Shown here piece by piece: positions 3,913-24,265 of a DNA stretch of 24,468 nt. The stretch lies in the IMG/VR virus record IMGVR_UViG_3300027806_000150, positions 1 to 24,468 of that record; one strand, 5' to 3'. The DNA comes from a virus. The translations under genes were made by a program, and so were the position numbers. Under the pieces are notes generated by a model. It was not told the origin of the DNA, ran no database searches, and was given only the letters and a program-made list of their open reading frames with translations. Within the stretch, counting starts at the first letter, position 1, and the number at the start of each line of letters is the position of its first letter.

Positions 3913-5946
3913 ATGGTCTCACCCAGACGAGATGATCGCCAAAGACCGAGGCCCCCGGCCTGGGCTGGGTATGCCCAAGGCGCACGCGACGTGGTGGTCG
4001 ACGGCGCTGAGGCTCTGCGTCGCTATGCCCGCAGCCGCACGCCCGCCCAGGCCTGGGGAGACGCTGTCGAGATGGCCAAGGGCCTCGGCGTGTCGGCCCT
4101 CGAGGGCGGCATCCGCGAGGCCAACAAGATCGCCGACGAGGACGGCTTCGACCTGACCCGCTCCTTCGACCGCTGGGTCGGCGACGCCGTCGACAATGTC
4201 GTCGACAAGGGCAAGGCGGCATACGCCGCCGACCGCAAGGCGCGGGCCAGCGGGAGGCGCGAGGACTACAAGGGCGCCGTCATGGCTGTTGGAGGTGTCA
4301 CCGCTGCGGCTGCAGACGGCCTGACGGGCGGCGGCAAGACCAAGGTGGCCAAGGCCGCCCTGGCCGAGGCCCAGGCCCTGAAGCGGTCGTCTGACGCCCT
4401 CCTGGCCCCGCCTGGGTACAAGCCCAGCACCCGCCAGCTTGCCCGCACCCGCCAGCCAATGGCGATGAAGCCCCAGAAGGCGCCCGCCGGCGTCACCGGC
4501 AGCAGCGACGCGACCAGGAACATCGACGTCACCTACAACGGCAAGCACCCCCACGAGTGGACCGCCGAGGAGAAGACGGCCTTCGGCGAGTTGTACGGCC
4601 TGAAGGGCTTCGGCGACGAGGCCCCCATGCAGGTCTTCCTCGACATGGACGGCAAGGAGATCGAAATTCCAGGCGGGCTGGAGGGGCGCTGGTCGCACTC
4701 TGACCTCCTGCGCCTCAAGGGTGCGGGCATCGACCCCAGCCGCCTGCCTGAAGACCTCCACATCGCCATCCAGCAGAAGCTGGGGCGCACCATGACGGAC
4801 GACACGGGCCTCAGCGACGGTCAGGTCTGGAGCGGCGCGATGTTCGGCATGACCAGCCCGAACAACCCCCTGTTCCCCAACCAGATGGCCATGAGCCGCC
4901 TGCGGATGAACAACATGGAGGACGTCAGCCGCCTCGCCGAATTTGCCCCCTGGAACCGTCCAGGCAGCAATGGCGCGCCGATCTCGCCGGAAGACCGGAG
5001 GCGTGTAAGCGACGAGATCGCAGCCGCCTACGGCCTGAACTCGGGCAAGGCGGGCGGCCTGGGCGTTCGCGGGACGACCGACTACAGCCGCGTCGCCGAC
5101 TTCGCCCACATGTTCCGCACCGACCCTGAGTGGATGCACCGCCGGCAGGACGAGCCGTGGTCGAACTTCGCGGAGCGCGTCATCAGTCAGGTGCCCGGCT
5201 TCAAGGCCAAGACCGGCATGTTTGGCACCGTCTGGCAGGACCCTGGCAACGCCGACGTCTCGGCGATGGACCGCCACATGGTGAACTTCGTGGAAGACGC
5301 GATCTTCACCGACCCCCAGCACCGCGCCTCATACGAGGCCCGCGTCCTCAACCGCGTCAACAAGGGCGGCGGCAAGACCTACGAAAGCTACGCAGACCTC
5401 CCCCACGCGATCCGCCAGGACGGCCTGCTGGAGGAGATTGGCAAGGCTCCCACGCCCAAGTTCCGCAACCACCGCACGGGCGAGATCAGCGGGGCGATCC
5501 CCGAGCATCTGGCCGGCGAAGACTGGATCAGCGAGCCTGAGAGCGTCCAGTTGATCGGCGACGCCTACAAGCGCGGCATGGCCATGAATGCCGAGCATGC
5601 CCGCGAGAGGGGCGTCGGCCTCTTCAACTCGCAGTGGCACGTCTGGGACCGCATCCGTCGCCGCCTGGAGCCGCACGAGAACATGTATCCCGGCCTCGAG
5701 CGGCTTCCTCGGATGAGCGTCAATCAGCTTCGTGTCGCCGACGACGCCCACCGCCGATCGGGGCACAAGAACTACACCAAGACCGAGTTGGACGACGGAT
5801 CGACCCGCCTCAACCCGACCAAGCCGGTCCCTGATTGGCGCAGGCTGACCTACTTCGGCATCCCGGCTGCCATCGCCCTGCCTATGACTGCCCAGATGAT
5901 GCAGCAGACGCAGCCGCCGCCCGAGGAAGAGCCGACCTACTACTAG
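3913..5946 (+). CDS. Large virion-type protein with HhH-glycosylase-like motif, 677 aa
   Basis: The start is ATG 3913 with GGAGGT at 3904-3909. A GTG at 3823 in the same frame lies before the terminator and is rejected. Residues about 1-120 are helical and charged. About 118-150 is Gly/Ala-rich and weakly hydrophobic (AVGGVTAAAADGLTGGGKTK). Residues 306-320 read WSGAMFGMTSPNNPL. Residues 428-455 carry a VPGFKAKTG hairpin-like segment with K433, and MDRH with D453 and H455. The K-x19-D spacing resembles the catalytic Lys/Asp of endonuclease III-type HhH-GPD glycosylases, and of a phage domain I recall as DUF7178. The end has a short hydrophobic stretch and a Pro/Glu tail. An enzyme packaged or made with the head genes is inference. 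Confidence 0.75.
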   Translation: MVSPRRDDRQRPRPPAWAGYAQGARDVVVDGAEALRRYARSRTPAQAWGDAVEMAKGLGVSALEGGIREANKIADEDGFDLTRSFDRWVGDAVDNVVDKGKAAYAADRKARASGRREDYKGAVMAVGGVTAAAADGLTGGGKTKVAKAALAEAQALKRSSDALLAPPGYKPSTRQLARTRQPMAMKPQKAPAGVTGSSDATRNIDVTYNGKHPHEWTAEEKTAFGELYGLKGFGDEAPMQVFLDMDGKEIEIPGGLEGRWSHSDLLRLKGAGIDPSRLPEDLHIAIQQKLGRTMTDDTGLSDGQVWSGAMFGMTSPNNPLFPNQMAMSRLRMNNMEDVSRLAEFAPWNRPGSNGAPISPEDRRRVSDEIAAAYGLNSGKAGGLGVRGTTDYSRVADFAHMFRTDPEWMHRRQDEPWSNFAERVISQVPGFKAKTGMFGTVWQDPGNADVSAMDRHMVNFVEDAIFTDPQHRASYEARVLNRVNKGGGKTYESYADLPHAIRQDGLLEEIGKAPTPKFRNHRTGEISGAIPEHLAGEDWISEPESVQLIGDAYKRGMAMNAEHARERGVGLFNSQWHVWDRIRRRLEPHENMYPGLERLPRMSVNQLRVADDAHRRSGHKNYTKTELDDGSTRLNPTKPVPDWRRLTYFGIPAAIALPMTAQMMQQTQPPPEEEPTYY

Positions 5947-5996: not shown

Positions 5997-6395
5997 ATGG
6001 CAAAGCCTAAGCCCAAGCCCATCGCGTTTACACGCGAGATCGCGGAGGACATCTGCGCCTGGGTCTCCTCCGGCAAGAGCGTCACCGCCTACTGCCGGCA
6101 GCCGAACACGGTCTGCAAATCGACGGTCTTCAACAAGCTGGCCTCCGAGGAGTGGTTCGTCGAGATGTTCGAGAAGGCGGCGCAGGCTCGCGCCCATGCC
6201 GTGGTCGATGAACTGATCGACATCGCCGACAACACGCCCGATCCCGCCGTCGCCCGCAACCGCATCCACGCCCGGCAGTGGTACGCCGGCAAGATGCACA
6301 ACAAGTACGCCGACAAGCAAAAGATCGAGCATGAGGGCGGCATTACAGTAGAGATCGTCCACTTCGGCGCGAAGACTGATGACGACAAGGATTAG
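5997..6395 (+). CDS. terS: Terminase small subunit
   Basis: This 132-aa protein begins MAKPKPKPIAFTREIAEDIC. It has an N-terminal helix-turn-helix-like region (residues about 12-50: FTREIAEDICAWVSSGKSVTAYC and a following STVFNKL helix). A long helical part follows with ARAHAVVDELIDIADN and RNRIHARQWYAGKMHNKYADK. That order is characteristic of phage small terminases, which recognise the packaging start site and assemble as a ring next to TerL. The large subunit starts 17 bases before this gene ends. The ribosome site is weak (AGG near 5986). The frame is open back to 5835, but that part overlaps the previous gene. A GTTTACACG copy lies at codons 10-13. Confidence 0.88.
   Translation: MAKPKPKPIAFTREIAEDICAWVSSGKSVTAYCRQPNTVCKSTVFNKLASEEWFVEMFEKAAQARAHAVVDELIDIADNTPDPAVARNRIHARQWYAGKMHNKYADKQKIEHEGGITVEIVHFGAKTDDDKD
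6026..6034 (+). repeat. GTTTACACG element, copy 3
   Basis: Exact plus-orientation copy within the first 13 codons of the small terminase gene. It is read as GCG TTT ACA CGC, using TTT and ACA codons that are rare in neighbouring genes. Confidence 0.8.
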
Positions 6396-7716
6396 GCTCC
6401 CCAACAACTGGGAGCCTCGAGACTACCAGCTTCCCCTCTGGTCCTACCTCCAGGGGGGCGGCCTTCGTGCAGACGTGGCCGCGCACCGACGGTGGGGCAA
6501 GGACGAGGTCGCGCTGCACTGGACGGCGACCCAGATGGTTCAGCGCCCCGGCAGCTACTGGCACATGCTGCCGGAGGCCTCCCAGGCGCGGAAGGCGATC
6601 TGGGACGCCGTCAACCCGCACACCGGCCTGCGCCGGATCGACGAGGCCTTCCCGCCCGCCCTGCGCGAGACGACGCGCGAGCAGGATATGTTCATCCGCT
6701 TCAAGAACGGCGCGACGTGGCAGGTCGTCGGGTCGGACAACTACAACTCCCTGGTCGGCTCGCCGCCAGTGGGCGTCATCTTCTCCGAGTGGTCGATCGC
6801 CCGCCCCGACGCCTGGACCTACATGAGGCCCATCCTGGCGGAAAACGGCGGCTGGGCGGTGTTCCTGTGGACGCCTCGGGGCCGCAACCACGCCACGCGG
6901 GCCTTCGAAGCGCGCGAGACTGACGCCGATTGGTTCACCCTGCGCTCGCCGGCCAGCGACACCAGTGTGTTTACACGCGATCAACTGGACAAGGAGCGCC
7001 AGGACCTGATCGTCGAGACCGGCTCCCAGGAGGAGGGCGAGGCCCGCTTCCGCCAGGAGTACATGGTCGACTTCAACGTCGCCACGCCGGGCTCCTACTA
7101 CGGCTCCCTGATCGGGGCCGCCGAGGCTGCCGAGCCGTCGCGCTTCCGTCGCGGCCTGTACGACCCGAGCGTCAAGGTGGAGACGTCCTGGGACCTGGGG
7201 ATCGACGACTACACGGCCATCTGGTTCTTCCAGCAGGTCGCCACCGAGGTCCGCGCCATCGACTACTACGAGGTGGGCGGGGAGGGGCTGCAGAGCATCG
7301 TCCGAGAGGCGATCGCCTCCAAGCCCTACGTCTACGGCACCCACTACCTGCCGCACGACGTCCAGGTCAGGGAACTCGGCAACAGCGGCAAGAGCCGGCT
7401 GCAGACCCTGAACGGCCTCGGCCTGACCAACGTCAACGTGGGCGTCCCGACGGACCCCGAGGAGCGCATCAACGCCGGGCGACAGTTGATCCCCGTGACG
7501 TGGTTCGACGTCGACAAGTGCGCCCAGGGCATCGAGCGCCTGCGGAACTACAAGAAGCGGTGGAACGCCGCCCTGGGGACCTACACCGGCCCCCTGCACG
7601 ACCAGAACAGCCACGGCGCTGACGCCTGGGGCGAGTTCGCGATGAACCGAAAGATCAGCCGCTTGGCGACGCCCCGAGGGCGTCCGAGGCCGACGACCGG
7701 AGGCTGGATGGTATGA
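6379..7716 (+). CDS. terL: Terminase large subunit (packaging ATPase/nuclease)
   Basis: This 445-aa protein has the terminase order. RRWGKD at residues 37-42 is the variant Walker A (arginine plus GK). VGVIFSEW at 131-138 is the Walker B strand with E137 as likely catalytic acid. FLWTPRGRNH is a coupling motif. In the nuclease half, SWDLGIDDYTAIW has D272 and D276/D277, and HGADAWGEF has D415, giving the metal-binding acids of the RNaseH-like fold. It pumps DNA into the prohead through the portal and cuts it. It overlaps TerS by 17 bases and the portal gene by ATGA. The length is normal for the compact class of large terminases. A GTTTACACG copy lies in the nuclease half. Confidence 0.95.
   Translation: MTTRIRLPNNWEPRDYQLPLWSYLQGGGLRADVAAHRRWGKDEVALHWTATQMVQRPGSYWHMLPEASQARKAIWDAVNPHTGLRRIDEAFPPALRETTREQDMFIRFKNGATWQVVGSDNYNSLVGSPPVGVIFSEWSIARPDAWTYMRPILAENGGWAVFLWTPRGRNHATRAFEARETDADWFTLRSPASDTSVFTRDQLDKERQDLIVETGSQEEGEARFRQEYMVDFNVATPGSYYGSLIGAAEAAEPSRFRRGLYDPSVKVETSWDLGIDDYTAIWFFQQVATEVRAIDYYEVGGEGLQSIVREAIASKPYVYGTHYLPHDVQVRELGNSGKSRLQTLNGLGLTNVNVGVPTDPEERINAGRQLIPVTWFDVDKCAQGIERLRNYKKRWNAALGTYTGPLHDQNSHGADAWGEFAMNRKISRLATPRGRPRPTTGGWMV
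6969..6977 (+). repeat. GTTTACACG element, copy 4
   Basis: Exact plus-orientation copy inside the large terminase gene, read as GTG TTT ACA CGC (Val-Phe-Thr-Arg). Confidence 0.8.
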
Positions 7717-9689
7717 AGGAAGCAATCCTCGAGGAAGCCCTGGAGGCCTTCGATCTCGCCGCCGAGGCCGAGAACGACAACCGCGAAGAGGCCCTGGACG
7801 ACCTCAGGTTCGCCCGCCTGGGTGACCAGTGGCCGGAGGGCGTCCGCTCCAAGCGGGAGGGCGAGGGCCGTCCCTGCCTGACGATCAACAAGCTGCCCGC
7901 CTTCATCCGTCAGGTGGTCAACGACGCCCGGCAGAACCAGCCGGCGATCAGCGTCCACCCCGCCGACGACAACGCCGACCCCGAGACGGCTGAAATCCTG
8001 GGCGACCTGATCCACAACATCGAGGTCTCCTCGAACGCCGAGGTCGCCTACGACACGGCCCTCGACTTCGCCGTGACGAGCGGCGTCGGCTACTTCCGCA
8101 TCAACACCAAGTATTCCTGCGACGACACCTTCGACCAGGACATCGTGATCGAGCGGGTCGCGAACCCCTTCTCGATCTACGGCGACCCCAACTCGACGGC
8201 AGCCGACAGCAGCGATTGGGACACGGCCTTCGTCGTCGACAGCATGTCCAAGGCCGCCTTCAAGGCGCGCTGGAAGGGCGCTGATGAGGTCGATTGGCAG
8301 GCCGACGGCTACGAGGCGCTGAACGAGAACTGGCGCGTCGAAAACCAAATCCAGATCGCCGAGTTCTGGAAGCGGGAGGAGGTCCTGCGGAAGATCGTCG
8401 CCCTGAGCGACGGGACCATCATGGGCCTGGACGTTTACACGGCCCAGAAGGCCTTCTTCGACGCCCTCGGCGTGTCGATCGTCGGCCAGCCCCGCGAGGT
8501 GCGCTCCAAGAAGGTCGTGCAGCACATCATGACCGGCGCTGAGGTGCTGGAGAGCATCGATTGGGCCGGCCAGTACATCCCGATCGTCCCCGTCTACGGC
8601 GAGGAGATCATGATCGACGGCAGGCGTCGCCTGCGCTCCCTCGTCCGCGACGCGAAGGACCCCCAGCGCCGCGTGAACTACCACACCAGCATGGTGACCG
8701 AGTTAGTCGCCCTGGCCCCCAAAGCGCCCTGGGTGGGCCGCGTTGGGGCCTTCGACACCGACCGTGCGCGCTGGGAGACGGCCAACACCGAGAACCACGC
8801 CTACCTCGAGTACGACGGCAACGACGCCCCGCAGCGCCAGCCCTTCTCAGGCGTGCCCGCCGGCGAGATGCAGCAGGTGCTGCTGGCCTCGGACGACATG
8901 AAGGCCGTCATGGGCCTCCACGACGCCAGCCTCGGCATGCGCTCGAACGAGACGTCTGGCCGGGCGATCATGGCGAGGCAGCGCGAGGGCGACGTCTCGA
9001 CGTTCAACTACATCGACAACCTCAGCCGCGCGATCCGCCACGCAGGCCGCATCATCGTCGACCTGATCCCGAAGGTTTACTCGGTCCCGCGCGTCATTCG
9101 CGTCATGGATCGCGAGGGAACGCCCCGCAACGTCCAGGTCAACCAGCCCTTCGTGCCGGGCGAGGAGGGGGCTCAGACCGGCCAGCCGGTGGAGGCCGAG
9201 AACCCCGACATCGCCAAAATCTACGACCTGACGGCTGGCAAGTACGACGTCATCGTCAAGGCCGGCCCCAGCTTCACGAGCCGCCGAGAGGAGGCCGCGA
9301 CGCAGATGATCGAACTGGTCCGCGCGTTCCCGCAGGCGGCTCCCGTCATCGGCGACATGCTGGCCAAGAACCTCGATTGGCCGGGCGCAGACGACCTCGC
9401 TGTGCGGATGCAGGCCCTCCTGCCGCCCCAGGTGCAGGCCGCCCTGGCCGGCAAGCAGCCGCCGTCGCCCGAGCAGATGCAGATGCAGGCCCAGGTGCAG
9501 CAGATGCAGCAGGCCGGCCAGCAGCTTCAGCAGGCCCTCCAGCAGGCGCAGGCGCAGATCGAACAACTGCGGGCTGACCGCTCCCTGGAGGAGCGGAAGC
9601 TGGAGATCGAGGCCTACGAGGCCGAGACGCGCCGCATCGCTGAAGAGAACAAGTCGATGCCTGAGGGCGTCGCATACATTTCGCAATAA
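7713..9689 (+). CDS. Portal protein, P22 gp1 family
   Basis: This 658-aa protein sits directly after TerL, overlapping it by ATGA, with GGAGG at 7699-7703. The N-terminal part (ARLGDQWPEGVRSKREGEGR, then LTINKLPAFIRQVVNDARQN) and the central SNETSGRAIMARQREGD are hallmarks of P22-like portals. The portal is a dodecameric ring at one head vertex through which DNA enters and leaves. The final part (from about residue 575) is a Gln/Met/Ala-rich coiled coil with repeated QMQ and QQAQAQ units, comparable to the C-terminal barrel of P22 gp1. The total is somewhat shorter than P22 gp1 (725 aa). Assignment is firm from motifs and order. Confidence 0.93.
   Translation: MKEAILEEALEAFDLAAEAENDNREEALDDLRFARLGDQWPEGVRSKREGEGRPCLTINKLPAFIRQVVNDARQNQPAISVHPADDNADPETAEILGDLIHNIEVSSNAEVAYDTALDFAVTSGVGYFRINTKYSCDDTFDQDIVIERVANPFSIYGDPNSTAADSSDWDTAFVVDSMSKAAFKARWKGADEVDWQADGYEALNENWRVENQIQIAEFWKREEVLRKIVALSDGTIMGLDVYTAQKAFFDALGVSIVGQPREVRSKKVVQHIMTGAEVLESIDWAGQYIPIVPVYGEEIMIDGRRRLRSLVRDAKDPQRRVNYHTSMVTELVALAPKAPWVGRVGAFDTDRARWETANTENHAYLEYDGNDAPQRQPFSGVPAGEMQQVLLASDDMKAVMGLHDASLGMRSNETSGRAIMARQREGDVSTFNYIDNLSRAIRHAGRIIVDLIPKVYSVPRVIRVMDREGTPRNVQVNQPFVPGEEGAQTGQPVEAENPDIAKIYDLTAGKYDVIVKAGPSFTSRREEAATQMIELVRAFPQAAPVIGDMLAKNLDWPGADDLAVRMQALLPPQVQAALAGKQPPSPEQMQMQAQVQQMQQAGQQLQQALQQAQAQIEQLRADRSLEERKLEIEAYEAETRRIAEENKSMPEGVAYISQ
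8433..8441 (+). repeat. GTTTACACG element, copy 5
   Basis: Exact plus-orientation copy inside the portal gene, read in a different phase from copies 3 and 4 (GAC GTT TAC ACG). The conserved unit is therefore the DNA word and not a peptide. Confidence 0.8.
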
Positions 9690-9712
9690 CCCTTAGTCGA
9701 GAGGACCAAGGG
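9690..9712 (+). terminator. Weak hairpin after the portal gene
   Basis: CCCTT (9690-9694) pairs with AAGGG (9708-9712), with a few further inner pairs possible. No U-tract follows, so it may stabilise or separate transcripts more than terminate them. Confidence 0.35.
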
Positions 9713-9725
9713 ACTGCGATTGCAA

Positions 9726-9751
9726 GCAGCGTCGAGATGACGCCGCCCCTC
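9726..9751 (+). promoter_or_regulatory. Repeated leader stem-loop, copy 1 (before scaffold gene)
   Basis: The segment starts GCAGCGTCGAGATGACGC and continues CGCCCCTC. GCGTC (9729-9733) pairs with GACGC (9739-9743) around GAGAT. Nearly the same 25 bases precede the coat gene at 10651. The stem is identical and only the loop length differs by one base, which is what conservation of RNA structure would look like. Confidence 0.55.
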
Positions 9752-9765
9752 TGGAAGCAGAAACT

Positions 9766-10632
9766 ATGACTATTGAAAGTGAAGTCGAGACCAACCTTGG
9801 CGATGACGAGTACATCGACAGTGGAGTTGAGGCTGAAGACGGAGACGAAGACCAGTCTGAGGAATACCTTGAAGACGGCGAAGAGGGTGATGAGCCCGAA
9901 GCCGAGGAAGAGGAAACCGAAGAAGTTGAGGTCTCCGGTAAGAAGTACAAGCTGCCCAGGTCCCTCAAGGACAACCTGATGATGCAGCAGGACTACACCC
10001 GCAAGACCACCGAACTCTCCGAAAGCCGCAAGGCCTTCGAAGCGGAGCGAGCGCAACGCATCGCCGCCGTCGAGGAGATGCAGGAGGACTACGGGCGCGT
10101 CCACGCCCTCAAGTCGCAGGTCGCTGAGTTCGAGAAGATCAACTGGTCGAACTTGAGCGCCATCGACCCCGCAGAGGCCCAGGCCCTGTGGATGACCTAC
10201 CAGCAGGTGAAGGACGGACTGTCCAACGCCGAAAATGATCTGAAGACGAAGACCGAAGGCCGTCTGCGGGACCAGCGAGAGAACCTCGCCAAGGCGATGC
10301 AGGAAACGGGTCGAGTTCTCTCTCGCGAGATCAAGGGCTGGTCGCCGGAACTGAGCGGAAAGCTGGCCGAGTTCGCCGAAACCTACGGCGTGCCCCGGTC
10401 GGAACTGTTCGAGACCCCCGACCCGCGTATCTGGAAGCTGTTGAACGACGCCTACCAGGGACGCCAGACCCAGACAAAGCAGAAGGCGACCGAACGCCAG
10501 CAAAGGGTGCAGCAGGTGCAGCCCGCAAAGTCCGTCCAGGGGAGACCCATCCCCCCGACCGGATTGAGCGACCGCCTGAGCGCCGCAGAGTGGGCACGTC
10601 GCCGCAACGCCCAGTTGGCCAAGCGCCGCTAG
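9766..10632 (+). CDS. Scaffolding protein
   Basis: This 288-aa protein lies between portal and coat genes, the usual scaffold position in P22-like phages (P22 scaffold is 303 aa). The first 60 residues are extremely acidic. A short patch, VEVSGKKYKLPRSLKDNLMM, follows, then a long charged coiled coil (residues about 85-190). The end is basic (AAEWARRRNAQLAKRR), as expected for the coat-binding helix-turn-helix of P22-like scaffolds. It would direct coat assembly and then leave the head. The start of the gene uses GAA, AGT, ATT and GTT codons much more than its neighbours. GGAAG at 9753-9757 is the likely ribosome site. Confidence 0.85.
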   Translation: MTIESEVETNLGDDEYIDSGVEAEDGDEDQSEEYLEDGEEGDEPEAEEEETEEVEVSGKKYKLPRSLKDNLMMQQDYTRKTTELSESRKAFEAERAQRIAAVEEMQEDYGRVHALKSQVAEFEKINWSNLSAIDPAEAQALWMTYQQVKDGLSNAENDLKTKTEGRLRDQRENLAKAMQETGRVLSREIKGWSPELSGKLAEFAETYGVPRSELFETPDPRIWKLLNDAYQGRQTQTKQKATERQQRVQQVQPAKSVQGRPIPPTGLSDRLSAAEWARRRNAQLAKRR

Positions 10633-13404: not shown

Positions 13405-14205
13405 GTGCCCATCGCGAACAACGACGACTACGTCGGCAGTGCCAAGCAGGTCATCGAGTGGATGCGGTCGGTCACACGCACGACCGTTATCGGCGGGTGG
13501 TTCACCCTGTTCGAACTGGCGGGGCAGCCCGGCCCAGGAACCCTGGCGGCGGGCAACACAGCCTCCGGTGTGGTTCACGACGACGCCATCGCGGGCTACC
13601 CGCAGATCAACAGCTTCGCTGGCGGGGCCGTCGGCTACCTGACCCGCTTCGCCGGTCATGGCTCCGCAGCCGGAAAACTGGCCCTCTACGACCGCCTCTT
13701 TGTGTGCGGGGCCTATCCCGGCATCCAATCGCGCTTGGCGCTGTCCTCGCCGCCGACCGGCTGGCAGTCCCGCGTACCCGGCTCCGACTACAAGGGCCTC
13801 GAAATCTGGATCGAGTGCGTCACGGCTCTGGCGGCGACGGCGACAATCACGGTGGAGTACCTCGACCAGGACGGCAACGCGGGGACGACCGGCGCGGTCA
13901 GCGTCGGCGGCGCTCTGACCCTCGGTCGGATGATCCAGCTTCCGCTGCAGGCGGGCGACAGCGGCGTCTCGGGCCTTGTGGCCATCACCTCCTCCGGCGC
14001 AGCGTCTGGCACCTTCAATGTCATGATTATGCGCCCCCTGATCTCCTGCTTCCGCTTTCCGTTCGCGAACGGCGGTGACACCTGGGACTACCTCAAGACC
14101 GGCCTGCCTGTGGTCTACGACAACTCCGCGCTTTACCCGGTCTTCGCCATGGACGGCACGTCTTCCGGCGTCCCCGAACTCAGCATCGAGATCGGGTCGA
14201 AGTAG
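13405..14205 (+). CDS. Virion-associated protein, paralogue A, 266 aa
   Basis: The start is GTG 13405, supported by GGAGGAG at 13391-13397. The product is beta-rich and closely resembles the next gene's product. Shared segments are GTLAAGNT, GYP-INSFAGGA-GYLTR, RVPGSD-KGL--WIE-VTA and VYDNSAL. No enzyme motif is visible. I recall similar 250-270-aa proteins in many phages between head-tail connector and fibre genes, where they are annotated only as virion or hypothetical proteins. The N-terminus (ANNDDYVGSAKQVIEWMRSV) may be the attachment part, as it is conserved in type in both copies. Role inferred: tail or fibre component. Confidence 0.75.
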   Translation: MPIANNDDYVGSAKQVIEWMRSVTRTTVIGGWFTLFELAGQPGPGTLAAGNTASGVVHDDAIAGYPQINSFAGGAVGYLTRFAGHGSAAGKLALYDRLFVCGAYPGIQSRLALSSPPTGWQSRVPGSDYKGLEIWIECVTALAATATITVEYLDQDGNAGTTGAVSVGGALTLGRMIQLPLQAGDSGVSGLVAITSSGAASGTFNVMIMRPLISCFRFPFANGGDTWDYLKTGLPVVYDNSALYPVFAMDGTSSGVPELSIEIGSK

Positions 14206-14997
14206 ATGGCTATCGCAAGTTTGGACGACTACCGGGCGGCGGTGAAGCAGAAAATCTTCTTCCTCAAGACCGGCCTCAGTGCGAACAACTTCCCGTTCAC
14301 TTCCTCGGGCACCCCGCCCGCCGGGACGCTGGCGGCGGGCAACACCACGACGGGCATCACGCCCACCGACGCCGTGACCGGCTACCCGCCGATCAACAGC
14401 TTCGCTGGCGGCGCGCAGGGCTACCTCACGCGCTGCGACTTCGTCACGTCCAACGCCAGTTCTCAGTGGGGCCTCCTATTCGACCAGCTCTGGAAGTCGG
14501 GAGGCCACACCTTCGGCACCAACTTCCCCATGACCACCTCAAACGTGGGGCGCGTGCCGGGCTCCGACTTCAAAGGGCTGCAACTGTGGATCGAGGTCGT
14601 CACGGCCATGGTCGGCACGGCGGTCATCACAATCGACTACCGTGACGATGCGGACGTGGCCCAGGTGGCCTCGATCACGCTACCGGCGGCGGCGGGGGCA
14701 AACACCATCCACCGGGTCTCGATCCCCTCCCACGGCATTCGCCGGGTCACCAACATCGTCGAGGCGGGGGCCACTGGCGGCACCTACAACGTCGCCATCA
14801 ACCGCCTGCTCTCGCGGATCAATTACAAGTATTTTGGTGGTTCGGATCGCGGGTGTCCGCCTCCCGACGCCGTGCAGGACAACCCCAACGCCTGCGGCTG
14901 GCGGGAGGTCTACGACAACTCGGCCCTGGCGATCTATTGGAGCAACACCTCCGGCAGCCGCGCCAACGAGGTCTGGATTGAGGTCGCGTCGAGATGA
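14206..14997 (+). CDS. Virion-associated protein, paralogue B, 263 aa
   Basis: This is the tandem paralogue of the preceding gene. Its ATG comes directly after that gene's TAG, with no spacer. The N-terminus (MAIASLDDYRAAVKQKIFF) and the blocks GTLAAGNT, INSFAGGAQGYLTR, RVPGSDFKGLQLWIE and EVYDNSALAIYW align with paralogue A. It differs in the region 90-110 and in an extra loop near residues 210-230 (GGSDRGCPPPDAVQDNPNAC), which holds two cysteines absent from A. The two may form a mixed complex, or may have diverged to bind different partners; both are inference. Its stop overlaps the next start as ATGA. Confidence 0.75.
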   Translation: MAIASLDDYRAAVKQKIFFLKTGLSANNFPFTSSGTPPAGTLAAGNTTTGITPTDAVTGYPPINSFAGGAQGYLTRCDFVTSNASSQWGLLFDQLWKSGGHTFGTNFPMTTSNVGRVPGSDFKGLQLWIEVVTAMVGTAVITIDYRDDADVAQVASITLPAAAGANTIHRVSIPSHGIRRVTNIVEAGATGGTYNVAINRLLSRINYKYFGGSDRGCPPPDAVQDNPNACGWREVYDNSALAIYWSNTSGSRANEVWIEVASR

Positions 14998-15470
14998 GCC
15001 TCCAGTTCCGTCGCTGGCGCTCCTCGGCGCTGCGCCGAGCGGTCCAGGGGTTTGAGGGTGGCGCACTCTCGGCGGTCGTCGCCGACGAGTTCTACGGACC
15101 ATCCTCGACCATCTCCTCTGCCTCGTGGTCCTCGGCTGGCTCGACCTCAGCGTCCCTCGTCCTGGTCGGCATTTCGCCATCCGCCTTCTCGGCGACCTCT
15201 TCGACCCTGTCTGATTGGCTGGGGGCGGGGCTTGGCATCATCAGCGCCAGCTTCTCGTCCTCCGGCCTGACGGTCGTCACCTTCAGCGGGGCGACCTTCG
15301 GGGGTAACCCCTGGGACGAGGAGGGGGGAGCCCCGGCAAGCTGGGCCTCTGCAGGAGCCTTCCCCAAGACCTGGGCTGCGGCGGCCCCCTCTCCCGAGAC
15401 GTGGGTCTCTGCAGAGACCTCTCCCGAGACCTGGGTTCCCGAGACCAACTCTCCCGAGACGTGGGGCTAA
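14994..15470 (+). CDS. Ser-rich protein with C-terminal tandem decapeptide repeats, 158 aa
   Basis: The start overlaps the previous stop (ATGA at 14994-14997). Residues 1-30 are basic then polar. Residues about 35-100 are Ser/Ala/Gly/Thr-rich and beta-like (TISSASWSSAGSTSASLVLV). From about residue 112 the protein is a run of 10-residue units with Trp at a fixed place: PASWASAGAF, PKTWAAAAPS, PETWVSAETS, PETWVPETNS, PETWG. I do not recognise a family. The repeat tail may be a length-variable spacer or adhesive surface segment near the fibres. The DNA repeats are close enough to expand or contract by recombination. Confidence 0.7.
   Translation: MSLQFRRWRSSALRRAVQGFEGGALSAVVADEFYGPSSTISSASWSSAGSTSASLVLVGISPSAFSATSSTLSDWLGAGLGIISASFSSSGLTVVTFSGATFGGNPWDEEGGAPASWASAGAFPKTWAAAAPSPETWVSAETSPETWVPETNSPETWG
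15329..15465 (+). repeat. Five 30-bp tandem repeats (coding)
   Basis: Units begin at about 15329, 15359, 15389, 15419 and 15449. The last three share CTCTCCCGAGAC(G/C)TGGG; the first two are more diverged. The period of exactly 30 bp keeps the reading frame and gives decapeptide repeats with a P-x-(T/S)-W core. Confidence 0.85.
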
Positions 15471-21473: not shown

Positions 21474-22169
21474 ATGGCCAAAGCTGACGACTACATCACA
21501 GGCAACATGTACGACCTCGGCGACGGCGGTGAGCCGCAGGTCTGGGGCGGCAAGAAGCTGGGCTGGGTCTCCAAGGAGCGTTGGAAGGCCACGAGGGGCG
21601 AGACGCAGGTCAAGTTTGACGCCGACCTCGACCTTCGCAGACGCCTCGACAGGGCCAAGCAGATCGCCACTGACAGCCCGACGGCGACCGGCTTCATCGG
21701 GGGGCTGATCTCCGGCCAGGGCGCGCCTGCATGGTCGCCCTTCAAGGGCATCGGCGCGGCCCACGACCTCGCGCAGCAGGTCAAGCCCGTGCGCGCGTCT
21801 GCCGCCTTCTCCAATCTGCAGGAGATGAGGCAGAACAACCCGACGGGTGCGGCGGTCGGTAGCCCGTCCGACACCGACATGGCGCTGTTGATGTCCAAGG
21901 ATGCGAACCTCGAGGTCAGTCAGTCGCGCGAACAGTTCCTTGAAGAGGTTGCTGCCGCTCGCAGGCACCTGGGCCGCAATCGCAAGGGCCTCACCGAGGA
22001 CTACCCCTACGACCTCCGCACCGACAACCCTGAAGACATCCCCCAGGGGGCCTTCTTCATCGCGACCAACGGCAAGCTGTACCGCAACAAGAAGGGCGCT
22101 GGCGCTCCTGGCCAGACGGCGCAGGAACGGGCGAGTTCGTTTGAGTACCTGGGACCGGAGGGCCGCTAA
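21474..22169 (+). CDS. Probable ejection-type internal protein, 231 aa
   Basis: GGGAGGT (21461-21467) precedes ATG 21474. Residues about 108-160 read VRASAAFSNLQEMRQNNPTG, then GSPSDTDMALLMSKDANLEV and SQSREQFLEEVAAARR. This pattern (helix, 'MRxNxPTGxAxG', 'SxxELxLL...LxxxQS') recurs in phage internal virion and DNA-transfer proteins. The C-terminal part (IPQGAFFIATNGKLYRNKKG) is a small beta unit. It is encoded directly before the largest ejection-type protein, overlapping it as TAATG. The exact role, such as part of a DNA-delivery channel or an internal scaffold, is not shown. Confidence 0.72.
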   Translation: MAKADDYITGNMYDLGDGGEPQVWGGKKLGWVSKERWKATRGETQVKFDADLDLRRRLDRAKQIATDSPTATGFIGGLISGQGAPAWSPFKGIGAAHDLAQQVKPVRASAAFSNLQEMRQNNPTGAAVGSPSDTDMALLMSKDANLEVSQSREQFLEEVAAARRHLGRNRKGLTEDYPYDLRTDNPEDIPQGAFFIATNGKLYRNKKGAGAPGQTAQERASSFEYLGPEGR

Positions 22170-24265
22170 TGGAGGTCTATCGCTTCAAGGGGCCTGACGG
22201 CCAAATCCACCGCGCCAGGGCCGCGTCGCCCGAGGAGGCGAAGGCCGGCCTGGAGAAGATGTGGGCCGATCGCGCCAACACGGGCCGCGTCGCCGCGCAG
22301 AAGGACGCCCGCACTCGGGTGCGGAACACGCCGGCGGTCATCCGCGCCCTCAACGCGGGAGCCTGGGCCAACTGGGCAGACGACCTCGACGCCTGGGGCG
22401 CTGGCGTCGAGACGGGCCTCAACAACAAGGTCCGCTCGCTGGTTGGCAAGGAGGCCCTCCCCTACACGCCGGAGGAGGCGCGGGCGGCGGTCCTGGCCGC
22501 CAACAAAGAGGGCGACGAGCAGTTCCGCCAAGACCACCCCTGGCTCTCCACCGGCTCCAACATCCTCGGCGCGGTCTTCGGCCCCGGCTCCAAGATGGCT
22601 GGTCGCTACATCGGCGGTGGGGCGACCATGATGTCCCGCGCGAAGCGGGCGGCCCTCGTGGCGGGCGGCTACGGCGGGGCGGCGGGGGCCGGCAACGCCG
22701 AGAACGACCGCGTGGGCGGCTTCGTCGGCGGCGCGCTGATGGGCGCGCCCGCCGGCTTCGTCGGCGTCCCCGTCCTCGAAAAGACCCTCCCGCCCATGGC
22801 TCGCGCCGTTGAGCGCGTCGCCATCCCCGCGATGGGCCGGATGGCCGAGGCGATGCCCAATCTCGCGGCCCAACTCGACCGCGCGACGGGCGGCGCGTCG
22901 ACAAGGCGTGTAAACAGGCAGCCCCTCAGCGAGGATGAGTACCGCGTCGCGAAGGCCCTCGAGGAGATCAGGCGCGACGACCTGGACGGCGGATACGCTC
23001 CCGGCGGCGGGCCGGCCATGTACGATCGCGGGCCAAACATGCAGACGACGGCTGACGTCCTCGTGCAGTCCGGCGGCCCCGGCGGCGCTCGCGTCCGCGC
23101 CCGCGCCGAGGAGGTGAAGGCCAACGAGCAGCCCGACCTGCGAGCCGATCTGGCGCAGGGCCTCGGCGGTCGCGGCGACTACTGGGAGACCCTCGAGACC
23201 ATGCAGAAGGGTCGCCGGAAGGCCGCCGACGATAGCATGGGGCTCATCGGCGACCGGCCCATCATGCTCGATGAGAACAGCGTCGCCGCCCTCCGCTCTG
23301 AGCGCGCCCGAAGCGCCATGGCCGAAGCCGTCAAGAACGCCCTCGCCTCGGAAGATGAGGCCGTCCGCCACTCCGGCGTGGCCCTGCAGCGCCTGATGGA
23401 CGACCTCGGCGACACGCCCGGCTACGCCCTCGGGCCGCGCGCCATCACCGTGCGTCAGGCGCAGGACATCAGTGAGAGCCTTCTCAAGGCTGCAGATGCC
23501 GCGTTTAAGAGCAGCACCGTCACTCCAGGTCTCGGCCCGACACTGAAGAGCCTGGGGCGGGCTGTCCGCACAAACGCCAGGACGCCCGATCGCGGCGGCC
23601 TCAAGGAGTACGACGACTTCCTCAAGCAGTACGCCACCGACATGGAGATCGAGGGGGCCTATGAACTCGGCTCCAACGTGCTGAAGAACGGCCTCGACAA
23701 CTCGGCTGAGTTCGTTCGCCGGGAACTGGACGAGGCGGGGCCGGGGGCGATGGCCGCCTACCGCAAGGGCGTCGCAGAGCAGCTTCTGAACACCGTGATG
23801 GACACGGGCGATCTGCGCGTGCTGCGGAACCTCCTGAAGAACGAGAACTTCAAGCAGCGCCTGCGGCTGGCCTTCCCTGACGACGCGTCCTTCGTCGAGT
23901 TCCTCGATGCCGCCGAGAAGCGCGTCATGCAGGCCAACCTCAACAACCGCTACGCCGGCGGCTCCCCCACCTACCTGCGTCAGGCCATGCGCCAGCGCCT
24001 GGAGGGCGAGGGCTACGATCTGAGCGACCTGATGGACGACGTCACCTCACCGCGCGCGGCGGCTGGCCGAGTGACTGCGCGCATCCTCCAGGGTCGCGGC
24101 GGCATCCTCACCGACCCCAAAAGGAACGCGATCCTGGGAGGGGCTCTCCTCGACGACGCCGAGATGTCTCGCCTGCTGAACGGCCTCCAGACGGGTCAGC
24201 GCATCCAGGGGGCCATCAGCCGCTCCACCGCGCCGATCGCCGGCAGCACGCAGAACCGCCCCTAG
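22169..24265 (+). CDS. Large internal/ejection protein, 698 aa
   Basis: The start shares its A with the previous TAA. Residues 1-30 form a small domain (YRFKGPDGQIHRARAASPEE) also seen at the start of other phage internal proteins. Residues about 130-205 are a Gly/Ala-rich, weakly hydrophobic stretch with GxxxG spacing (ALVAGGYGGAAGAGNAEN, GGFVGGALMGAPAGFVGVPV), typical of ejected proteins that insert into or cross the host envelope. The remaining 490 residues are long charged helices (ARVRARAEEVKANEQPD, then SEFVRR-like segments). No lysozyme or protease motif is seen. This is the usual last and longest gene of a podovirus ejection cluster. A minus-orientation GTTTACACG copy lies at 22907. 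Confidence 0.75.
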   Translation: MEVYRFKGPDGQIHRARAASPEEAKAGLEKMWADRANTGRVAAQKDARTRVRNTPAVIRALNAGAWANWADDLDAWGAGVETGLNNKVRSLVGKEALPYTPEEARAAVLAANKEGDEQFRQDHPWLSTGSNILGAVFGPGSKMAGRYIGGGATMMSRAKRAALVAGGYGGAAGAGNAENDRVGGFVGGALMGAPAGFVGVPVLEKTLPPMARAVERVAIPAMGRMAEAMPNLAAQLDRATGGASTRRVNRQPLSEDEYRVAKALEEIRRDDLDGGYAPGGGPAMYDRGPNMQTTADVLVQSGGPGGARVRARAEEVKANEQPDLRADLAQGLGGRGDYWETLETMQKGRRKAADDSMGLIGDRPIMLDENSVAALRSERARSAMAEAVKNALASEDEAVRHSGVALQRLMDDLGDTPGYALGPRAITVRQAQDISESLLKAADAAFKSSTVTPGLGPTLKSLGRAVRTNARTPDRGGLKEYDDFLKQYATDMEIEGAYELGSNVLKNGLDNSAEFVRRELDEAGPGAMAAYRKGVAEQLLNTVMDTGDLRVLRNLLKNENFKQRLRLAFPDDASFVEFLDAAEKRVMQANLNNRYAGGSPTYLRQAMRQRLEGEGYDLSDLMDDVTSPRAAAGRVTARILQGRGGILTDPKRNAILGGALLDDAEMSRLLNGLQTGQRIQGAISRSTAPIAGSTQNRP
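22907..22915 (-). repeat. GTTTACACG element, copy 9 (minus orientation)
   Basis: Exact minus-orientation copy inside the large ejection gene, read on the plus strand as CGT GTA AAC (Arg-Val-Asn). Confidence 0.8.

Follow-up and report, generated by a model that had tools for sequence, protein, structure and literature searches.

An OGG-like HhH-GPD domain predicted in a probable ejection protein of a P22-like phage

Introduction

Endonuclease III (Nth) has the lysine-then-aspartate order of the HhH-GPD enzymes, and most of its members contain a [4Fe-4S] cysteine motif. In classical HhH-GPD enzymes, as in the alignment of OGG2 proteins, the spacing between the two residues is 18. Recognition of 8-oxoG by OGG1 (human and mouse OGG1, CacOGG) involves Phe319, which stacks on the base, and Gln315, which bonds to its N1, and the equivalent pairs are Asp194/Trp198 in OGG2 (D194-x3-W198 in MjaOGG2) and Asp218/Trp222 in AGOG (PMC3397491). 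In the OGG2 enzymes, which are 8-oxoguanine DNA glycosylase/AP lyases, the carboxylate of a C-terminal lysine senses 8-oxoG (PMC3397491).

Polyvalent and ejection proteins, such as T7 gp16 with its cell-wall-degrading domain and the proteins carrying ART-PolyVal, PcfJ or LPD23, are also among the closest described systems, and the family presented here shares their architecture, neighbourhood and cysteine depletion. The word "glycosylase" is absent from the main text of the 2017 survey in which the polyvalent proteins were defined (PMC5512222), and literature searches brought up no description of an ejection protein or internal virion protein with DNA glycosylase activity; such an activity appears to be new for these proteins.

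Here we analyse a stretch of viral DNA of 24,468 nucleotides (the window), corresponding to positions 1 to 24,468 of the IMG/VR record IMGVR_UViG_3300027806_000150. A sequence-only reading of this DNA had singled out one gene as encoding a virion-type protein with a motif like that of endonuclease III-type glycosylases, which could act on DNA at entry or during packaging.

Results

A cysteine-free protein encoded directly before the terminase genes

Translation confirmed the open reading frame of 677 residues, and its position immediately before the terminase genes was borne out by the identification of the small subunit, followed by the large-subunit gene. The main features of the region are the following:

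3913..5946, plus strand: coding sequence of the 677-residue protein (P0001), carrier of the predicted glycosylase domain, open throughout with no stop
3913..4485, plus strand: N-terminal region, residues 1-191, Ala/Gly-rich and without a recognised domain
5857..5943, plus strand: C-terminal tail, residues 649-677, predicted to be disordered (pLDDT < 50)
~5997..6395, plus strand: terminase small subunit, directly downstream (phrog_1482, E 7e-27)
6379..7716, plus strand: terminase large subunit, by position and a Walker-like sequence; matched PHROG family 2472, without assigned function
7713..9689, plus strand: P22-type portal protein (PF16510, E 7e-200)

The window also encodes a P22-type coat protein and an SU10-type adaptor, and its gene content marks it as part of the genome of a P22-like podophage. 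The Gly/Ala-rich part that had been pointed out is real, A+G reaching 48% per 50 residues from about residue 102. The protein contains no cysteine at all, and an identical one is encoded by a second viral contig. Single-sequence searches of Pfam, PHROGs, the PDB and annotated phages gave no match for it, a search of NCBIfam with the family alignment gave none either, and a Pfam scan recognised no second domain in the window protein. No cultured relative was found in database searches that included annotated phages.

Relatives in environmental viral contigs and their conservation

The motifs under consideration, all at the positions given by the sequence-only reading where it had named them, are listed below:

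4855..4866, plus strand: SPNN, residues 315-318, a helix-loop-helix site by conservation and predicted secondary structure
5191..5217, plus strand: HhH hairpin VPGFKAKTG, residues 427-435, with the catalytic-type lysine K433 at 5209-5211
5269..5277, plus strand: D453-R454-H455, a helix-start catalytic-type aspartate with a histidine at D+2 (MDRH is 452-455)
5632..5646, plus strand: Q574-x3-W578, putative base-pocket pair, by conservation and by the structural-alignment register in both models
5668..5679, plus strand: EPHE, residues 586-589, a conserved motif; the alignment to OGG2 stops at its H588

A scan of every six-frame ORF in the window finds the order PG...K[TSA]-15/20-D.H a single time, and the same order was obtained in 6 of 20,000 shuffles of the 677-residue protein, so that one sequence on its own can do little more than suggest a relationship and the case depends on relatives and structure. 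The first relatives were obtained with a degenerate DNA pattern for PG.K.KTG.F run against IMG/VR contigs, which returned 51 stretches, nearly all of them chance occurrences, L037 and L045 being the true relatives. A profile built from the first relatives detected 55 loci and later about 100 relatives in environmental viral contigs, amounting to 72 distinct homologous ORFs, over which conservation was counted in the rows covering each site. At its sensitivity, the scan of genome contigs detected no relatives in species genomes. Weak Pfam matches, MinC_N among them, were confined to one or two members and were set aside for that reason.

The lysine and the aspartate on which the earlier proposal hinged proved to be invariant, K433 being lysine in 70/70 covered rows and D453, together with R454 and H455, being unchanged in 71/71. 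Equally unchanged, in 70/70 rows, were S315 and P319 as well as Q574, W578, D579, R582, E586, H588 and E589, while position 317 is Asn in 64 rows and position 318 is Asn or Gln in 69. The spacing from Lys to Asp is 20, and 18 in the group of L080, as in the classical enzymes. Close relatives (dN 0.013, dS 0.433) evolve under strong purifying selection; a third pair, L247/L253, was excluded from this calculation because its codons are not collinear.

These data bear on whether the protein might be a structural or DNA-binding part of the virion in which a glycosylase fold is kept without catalysis. Many ejection proteins are structural and a fold by itself shows no function, but the catalytic-type Lys and Asp, the His and the pocket Gln/Trp are invariant among relatives that are only 32-49% identical to the window protein (46% for L080), and we regard this explanation as very improbable.

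Sequence comparison with known glycosylases

No match to PF00730 was found in the window protein, in 30 relatives or in 12 longer phage records, nor did PF22175, the OGG2 family, match the family of the 677-residue protein in scans in which control genomes were positive. The glycosylases in the PDB gave no sequence-level match, and the weak profile matches to other PDB entries (peptide deformylase, PF0695) were discarded as noise. Alignment of the family with 24 OGG2 proteins by hhalign gave an E-value of 0.07, with a score that was reached by 3 of 150 column shuffles; this best alignment to OGG2, though weak, places lysine on lysine and aspartate on aspartate.

The predicted fold is that of an OGG-like HhH-GPD domain

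AlphaFold2 was run on residues 192-677 of the window protein with an alignment of 30 sequences, yielding a model with a pLDDT of 88.9 and a pTM of 0.87 in which residues 192-648 are of high confidence. The domain delimited from it is:

4735..5676, plus strand: OGG-like HhH-GPD core, residues 275-588, the part matched to OGG2 structures (3fhg/3n0u/3knt, VIA Z 12.5) and numbered 84-397 in the model

In this model the K433 hairpin lies between helices 225-235 and 241-251 (model numbering), with K433 as the second residue of the second helix, and D453 stands after the hairpin, just before helix 263-268. A VIA comparison with the PDB gave SsoOGG (SsOgg, 3fhg) as the best match, with a Z of 12.5 and an rmsd of 3.0 over 191/207 residues, and the same Z was obtained over 191-198 of about 206 residues for SsOgg, TmaOGG (TmOgg, 3n0u) and MjaOGG (MjOgg, 3knt/3fhf), 198/206 in the case of MjOgg. 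The 45 top rows were OGG enzymes only, OGG1 appearing with a Z of about 9.9, and, with respect to the A-domain with Gly42 of OGG1, some of the OGG1 alignments reached into the N-terminal part of the model.

Since the aligner warns that helical models can reach Z values of 13-14 without kinship, a second, domain-only model was made for L080. This model (pLDDT 89.7, pTM 0.87) matched MjOgg with a Z of 13.5 over 199/206 residues, and OGG enzymes occupied all 50 rows among the matches listed. As both models share one alignment, the second is a replicate rather than independent data, and with such Z values attainable by helical models the case rests on the fold and the motifs jointly. Foldseek placed MjOgg and mouse OGG1 first for the window model with E-values that are non-significant (best 0.08-0.33 across both models), and alone is insufficient to establish the fold.

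Taken from the models, residues ~275-590 almost certainly adopt an HhH-GPD fold. Neither of the outcomes named in the sequence-only reading as refuting it, a confident model lacking the HhH fold or poor conservation of K433 and D453, was observed, and its interpretation is supported. The domain is predicted to be an OGG-like HhH-GPD glycosylase domain, closest in fold to OGG2 and OGG1 and not endonuclease III itself. The best structural match, OGG2, is covered over nearly its whole chain and has in common with the phage domain the HhH lysine, the aspartate, the D-R-H sequence and a tryptophan in the last helix. In contrast to OGG2, the phage domain has Gln574 at the position of Asp194 and an EPHE run-on replacing the lysine sensor, and the phage protein has insertions, an extra N-terminal region, no cysteine and no significant sequence similarity. 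With OGG1 it shares the Q-x3-aromatic pocket, the histidine at D+2 and a putative Asn-containing void-filling loop, but its Z is lower and a Trp takes the place of Phe319. As regards the likeness to endonuclease III, the Lys...Asp order and the HhH-GPD type of fold stand, whereas the nearest structures are those of OGG2 and OGG1; a protein free of cysteine cannot carry the Fe-S cluster of endonuclease III, and membership in that family was rejected on this ground. The domain appears to represent an undescribed HhH-GPD subfamily.

Two more distant enzymes among the structural matches, the hypermodification enzyme PUGT (8z2m) and DUF2419 (7ugk), raise the alternative of a base-modifying or nucleotide-cleaving relative, either of the PUGT type or a queuosine-type N-glycosidase like DUF2419. 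These matches are far weaker than those to OGG (Foldseek E 1.6 for 8z2m, Z 8.7 for 7ugk), the gene sits in a late virion context and not in a modification operon, and PF00303, the thymidylate synthase-type marker of thymidine hypermodification, was not found in 12 longer phage records. This alternative seems to us the least probable of those considered, slightly below a non-catalytic virion part.

Reading of the putative active site

With the window model, almost every alignment to OGG1 stops where model residues 391-393 fall on residues 323-325 of hOGG1, and if the helix is gap-free this constant offset puts Q574 on Gln315 and W578 on Phe319, in agreement with the L080 model. The base-pocket aromatic residue is accordingly Trp in the phage family and Phe in hOGG1. 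H455 corresponds to the histidine at D+2, H270 of hOGG1, and D-R-H is also present in most OGG2 proteins. For the SPNN loop, the model suggests an equivalence with the NN(N)/Asn loop with which OGG1 and OGG2 fill the void in DNA (PMC3397491).

H588 of the EPHE motif falls at the C-terminal lysine of OGG2 and the chain runs about 90 residues further, so the lysine sensor is absent from the 677-residue protein, which must either sense 8-oxoG in another way or act on some other substrate. Fold and residue conservation are computed properties, and catalysis and substrate are deduced. The domain is likely to be an active glycosylase, and a guanine-type substrate (oxidised or otherwise modified guanine) is reasonably probable.

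Distant similarity to DUF7178

The sequence-only reading had compared the SPNN segment with that of a phage domain, DUF7178, and this family does exist as PF23802. A DUF7178 query retrieved 126 phage records, and the four members scanned all match PF23802. Its alignment displays LSPN, G.K...F, ID.HA and Q-x3-W, and it has in common with the window family the motif order LSPN...K...D.H...Q-x3-W-x3-R; unlike the window family, DUF7178 proteins are stand-alone, of about 200 residues, and contain cysteines. Profile comparison of DUF7178 with OGG2 gave an E-value of 6e-4, a score reached in 0 of 150 shuffles, and some DUF7178 proteins are labelled "glycosylase" in actinophage records. The PF23802 model did not match the window protein, and hhalign of the window family with DUF7178 was not significant, 9 of 150 shuffles reaching the score. 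The parallel in motif order holds, the profile tie falls short of significance, and a distant kinship between the two families is plausible.

DUF7178 is probably a minimal HhH-GPD glycosylase family, and the analysis links it to OGG2-type glycosylases, although Pfam gives no function for this family of many cultured phages. The SPN segment, the Lys, the Asp and Q-x3-W are kept in L228, L230, L233, L234 and others, and the family is frequent in phages that infect Mycobacterium, Streptomyces, cyanobacteria and roseobacters.

Virion context: fusions, neighbours and cysteine depletion

The region matching residues 1-191 is longer in the relatives and can hold other domains in one ORF with the glycosylase domain, namely an SLT transglycosylase (L058, 2e-26; L059, 1.5e-27), ART-PolyVal plus PcfJ (L284, 4e-20; L285) or LPD23 (L099, L100, L278 and L281), all of which are typical of ejection and polyvalent proteins. 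The domain also occurs in very long single ORFs of up to 2108 residues (L305), and in L305 and L306 the extended N-terminal portion had no Pfam match at all.

In the fetched DNA, where many loci are short, a packaging or virion gene was found at 41/73 loci. In L092 the neighbours of the gene on one side encode a tail protein and an internal virion protein resembling gp14, and those on the opposite side a further internal virion protein and a tail fibre. A gene for a DNA ejection protein lies upstream of it in L096, and terminase, portal or head genes are close by in L066, L102, L058, L074 and L078.

Cysteine is nearly absent from the glycosylase domain of the family, with 1 in 10,809 residues compared to 1.35% in OGG2. 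T7 gp15 and gp16 (2,065 residues) and P22 gp7, gp20 and gp16 (1,309 residues) contain none, while the other T7 and P22 proteins average 0.8-1.0%. Scaffolds and P22 gp26 show that non-ejected proteins without cysteine exist, which makes the depletion supportive and not a proof. Ejected phage proteins in general seem to be marked by the absence of cysteine (T7, P22; L307, L308), and a 698-residue ORF of the window at 22169-24265, also free of cysteine, may be another ejection protein.

Gene context and domain fusions are computed, and packaging and timing are what we infer. The label "virion-type" given earlier is supported by synteny, the fusions of the relatives and cysteine depletion, which together suggest that the 677-residue protein is very probably an ejected phage protein. 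The gene lies directly before the terminase in the window and near TerL or portal genes at other loci, and this placement would also suit a late enzyme that is not ejected and whose task is to repair or nick DNA in the producer cell, either ahead of packaging or while it proceeds. The SLT, ART-PolyVal and LPD23 fusions, the internal-virion-protein neighbours and a cysteine depletion like that of the T7 and P22 ejection proteins speak against such an enzyme, which we consider improbable.

Discussion

We think it fairly probable that this is a virion-packaged, ejected protein of the polyvalent type, whose C-terminal half represents a new OGG2/OGG1-like subfamily of HhH-GPD glycosylases serving repair at entry. 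In the mechanism that we propose, the helix-hairpin-helix would grip the DNA backbone and the SPNN loop would occupy the space vacated when a base flips out. W578 would stack on this base and Q574 would hydrogen-bond to it; an oxidised or otherwise modified guanine is the most likely candidate. D453 and K433 would then cut the glycosidic bond, and a Schiff base on K433 would allow AP-lyase nicking. Delivered with the genome, the enzyme would act in the newly infected cell before phage gene expression, and its most plausible task would be the clearing of lesions from the incoming phage genome. Whether the target is the phage's own DNA we regard as evenly balanced.

The main alternative is an ejected anti-host effector whose target is a normal base, or a modified base specific to the host, in DNA of the host or of a competitor or in a nucleic acid related to defence. 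Its excision would serve to harm the host chromosome or weaken a defence and not to repair phage DNA. Polyvalent proteins are largely predicted to be counter-host effectors (PMC5512222), relatives have the domain in a single ORF with an ADP-ribosyltransferase and PcfJ, and the missing 8-oxoG sensor of the OGG2 type makes another base possible. The Q-x3-aromatic pocket pair, however, resembles that of OGG1, an attack on common bases would endanger the phage genome too unless this were modified, and the hypermodification marker PF00303 was missing from the longer records, as described above. In balance, we find such an effector unlikely, although less so than the other alternatives.

More broadly, we put forward tentatively, as slightly more doubtful than assured, that tailed phages inject a dedicated DNA glycosylase/AP lyase, as an effector within their polyvalent or ejection proteins, at entry against a specific modified or damaged guanine, be it for genome repair or for attack on host or defence-marked DNA; this would be an activity of a new class in the opening minutes of infection. 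If the entry-repair proposal is true, uncultured phages of a widespread group carry a base-excision enzyme in the virion and bring it into the cell along with their genome, DNA glycosylase joins the known activities of ejected phage proteins, and a function is assigned to a family recognised by no database. It would also suggest that phages attend to lesions in their packaged genome, or to the chemical state of host DNA, before their genes are read.

Other observations on the window and its relatives

The window ORFs at 13405-14205 and 14206-14997 are adjacent and form a tandem pair of paralogues with 36% identity from end to end, and the ORF at 14994-15470 ends with SPETW-type peptide repeats (15350-15470). 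The product of 705-1799 contains HEVLH, has two CxxC-like clusters in its C-terminal part and resembles by eye a SprT-like metalloprotease, its sole strong match being phrog_6361, of unknown function. Similar acetyltransferase-like ORFs (GNAT-like by eye) are found among the late genes of two relatives (L037 11221-11877 and L045 1464-2090). In L045, moreover, the ORF at 6763-10317 has an N-terminal GNGRHRFAYLRDQG stretch, without a Pfam match, that resembles a ParB-like nuclease fold.
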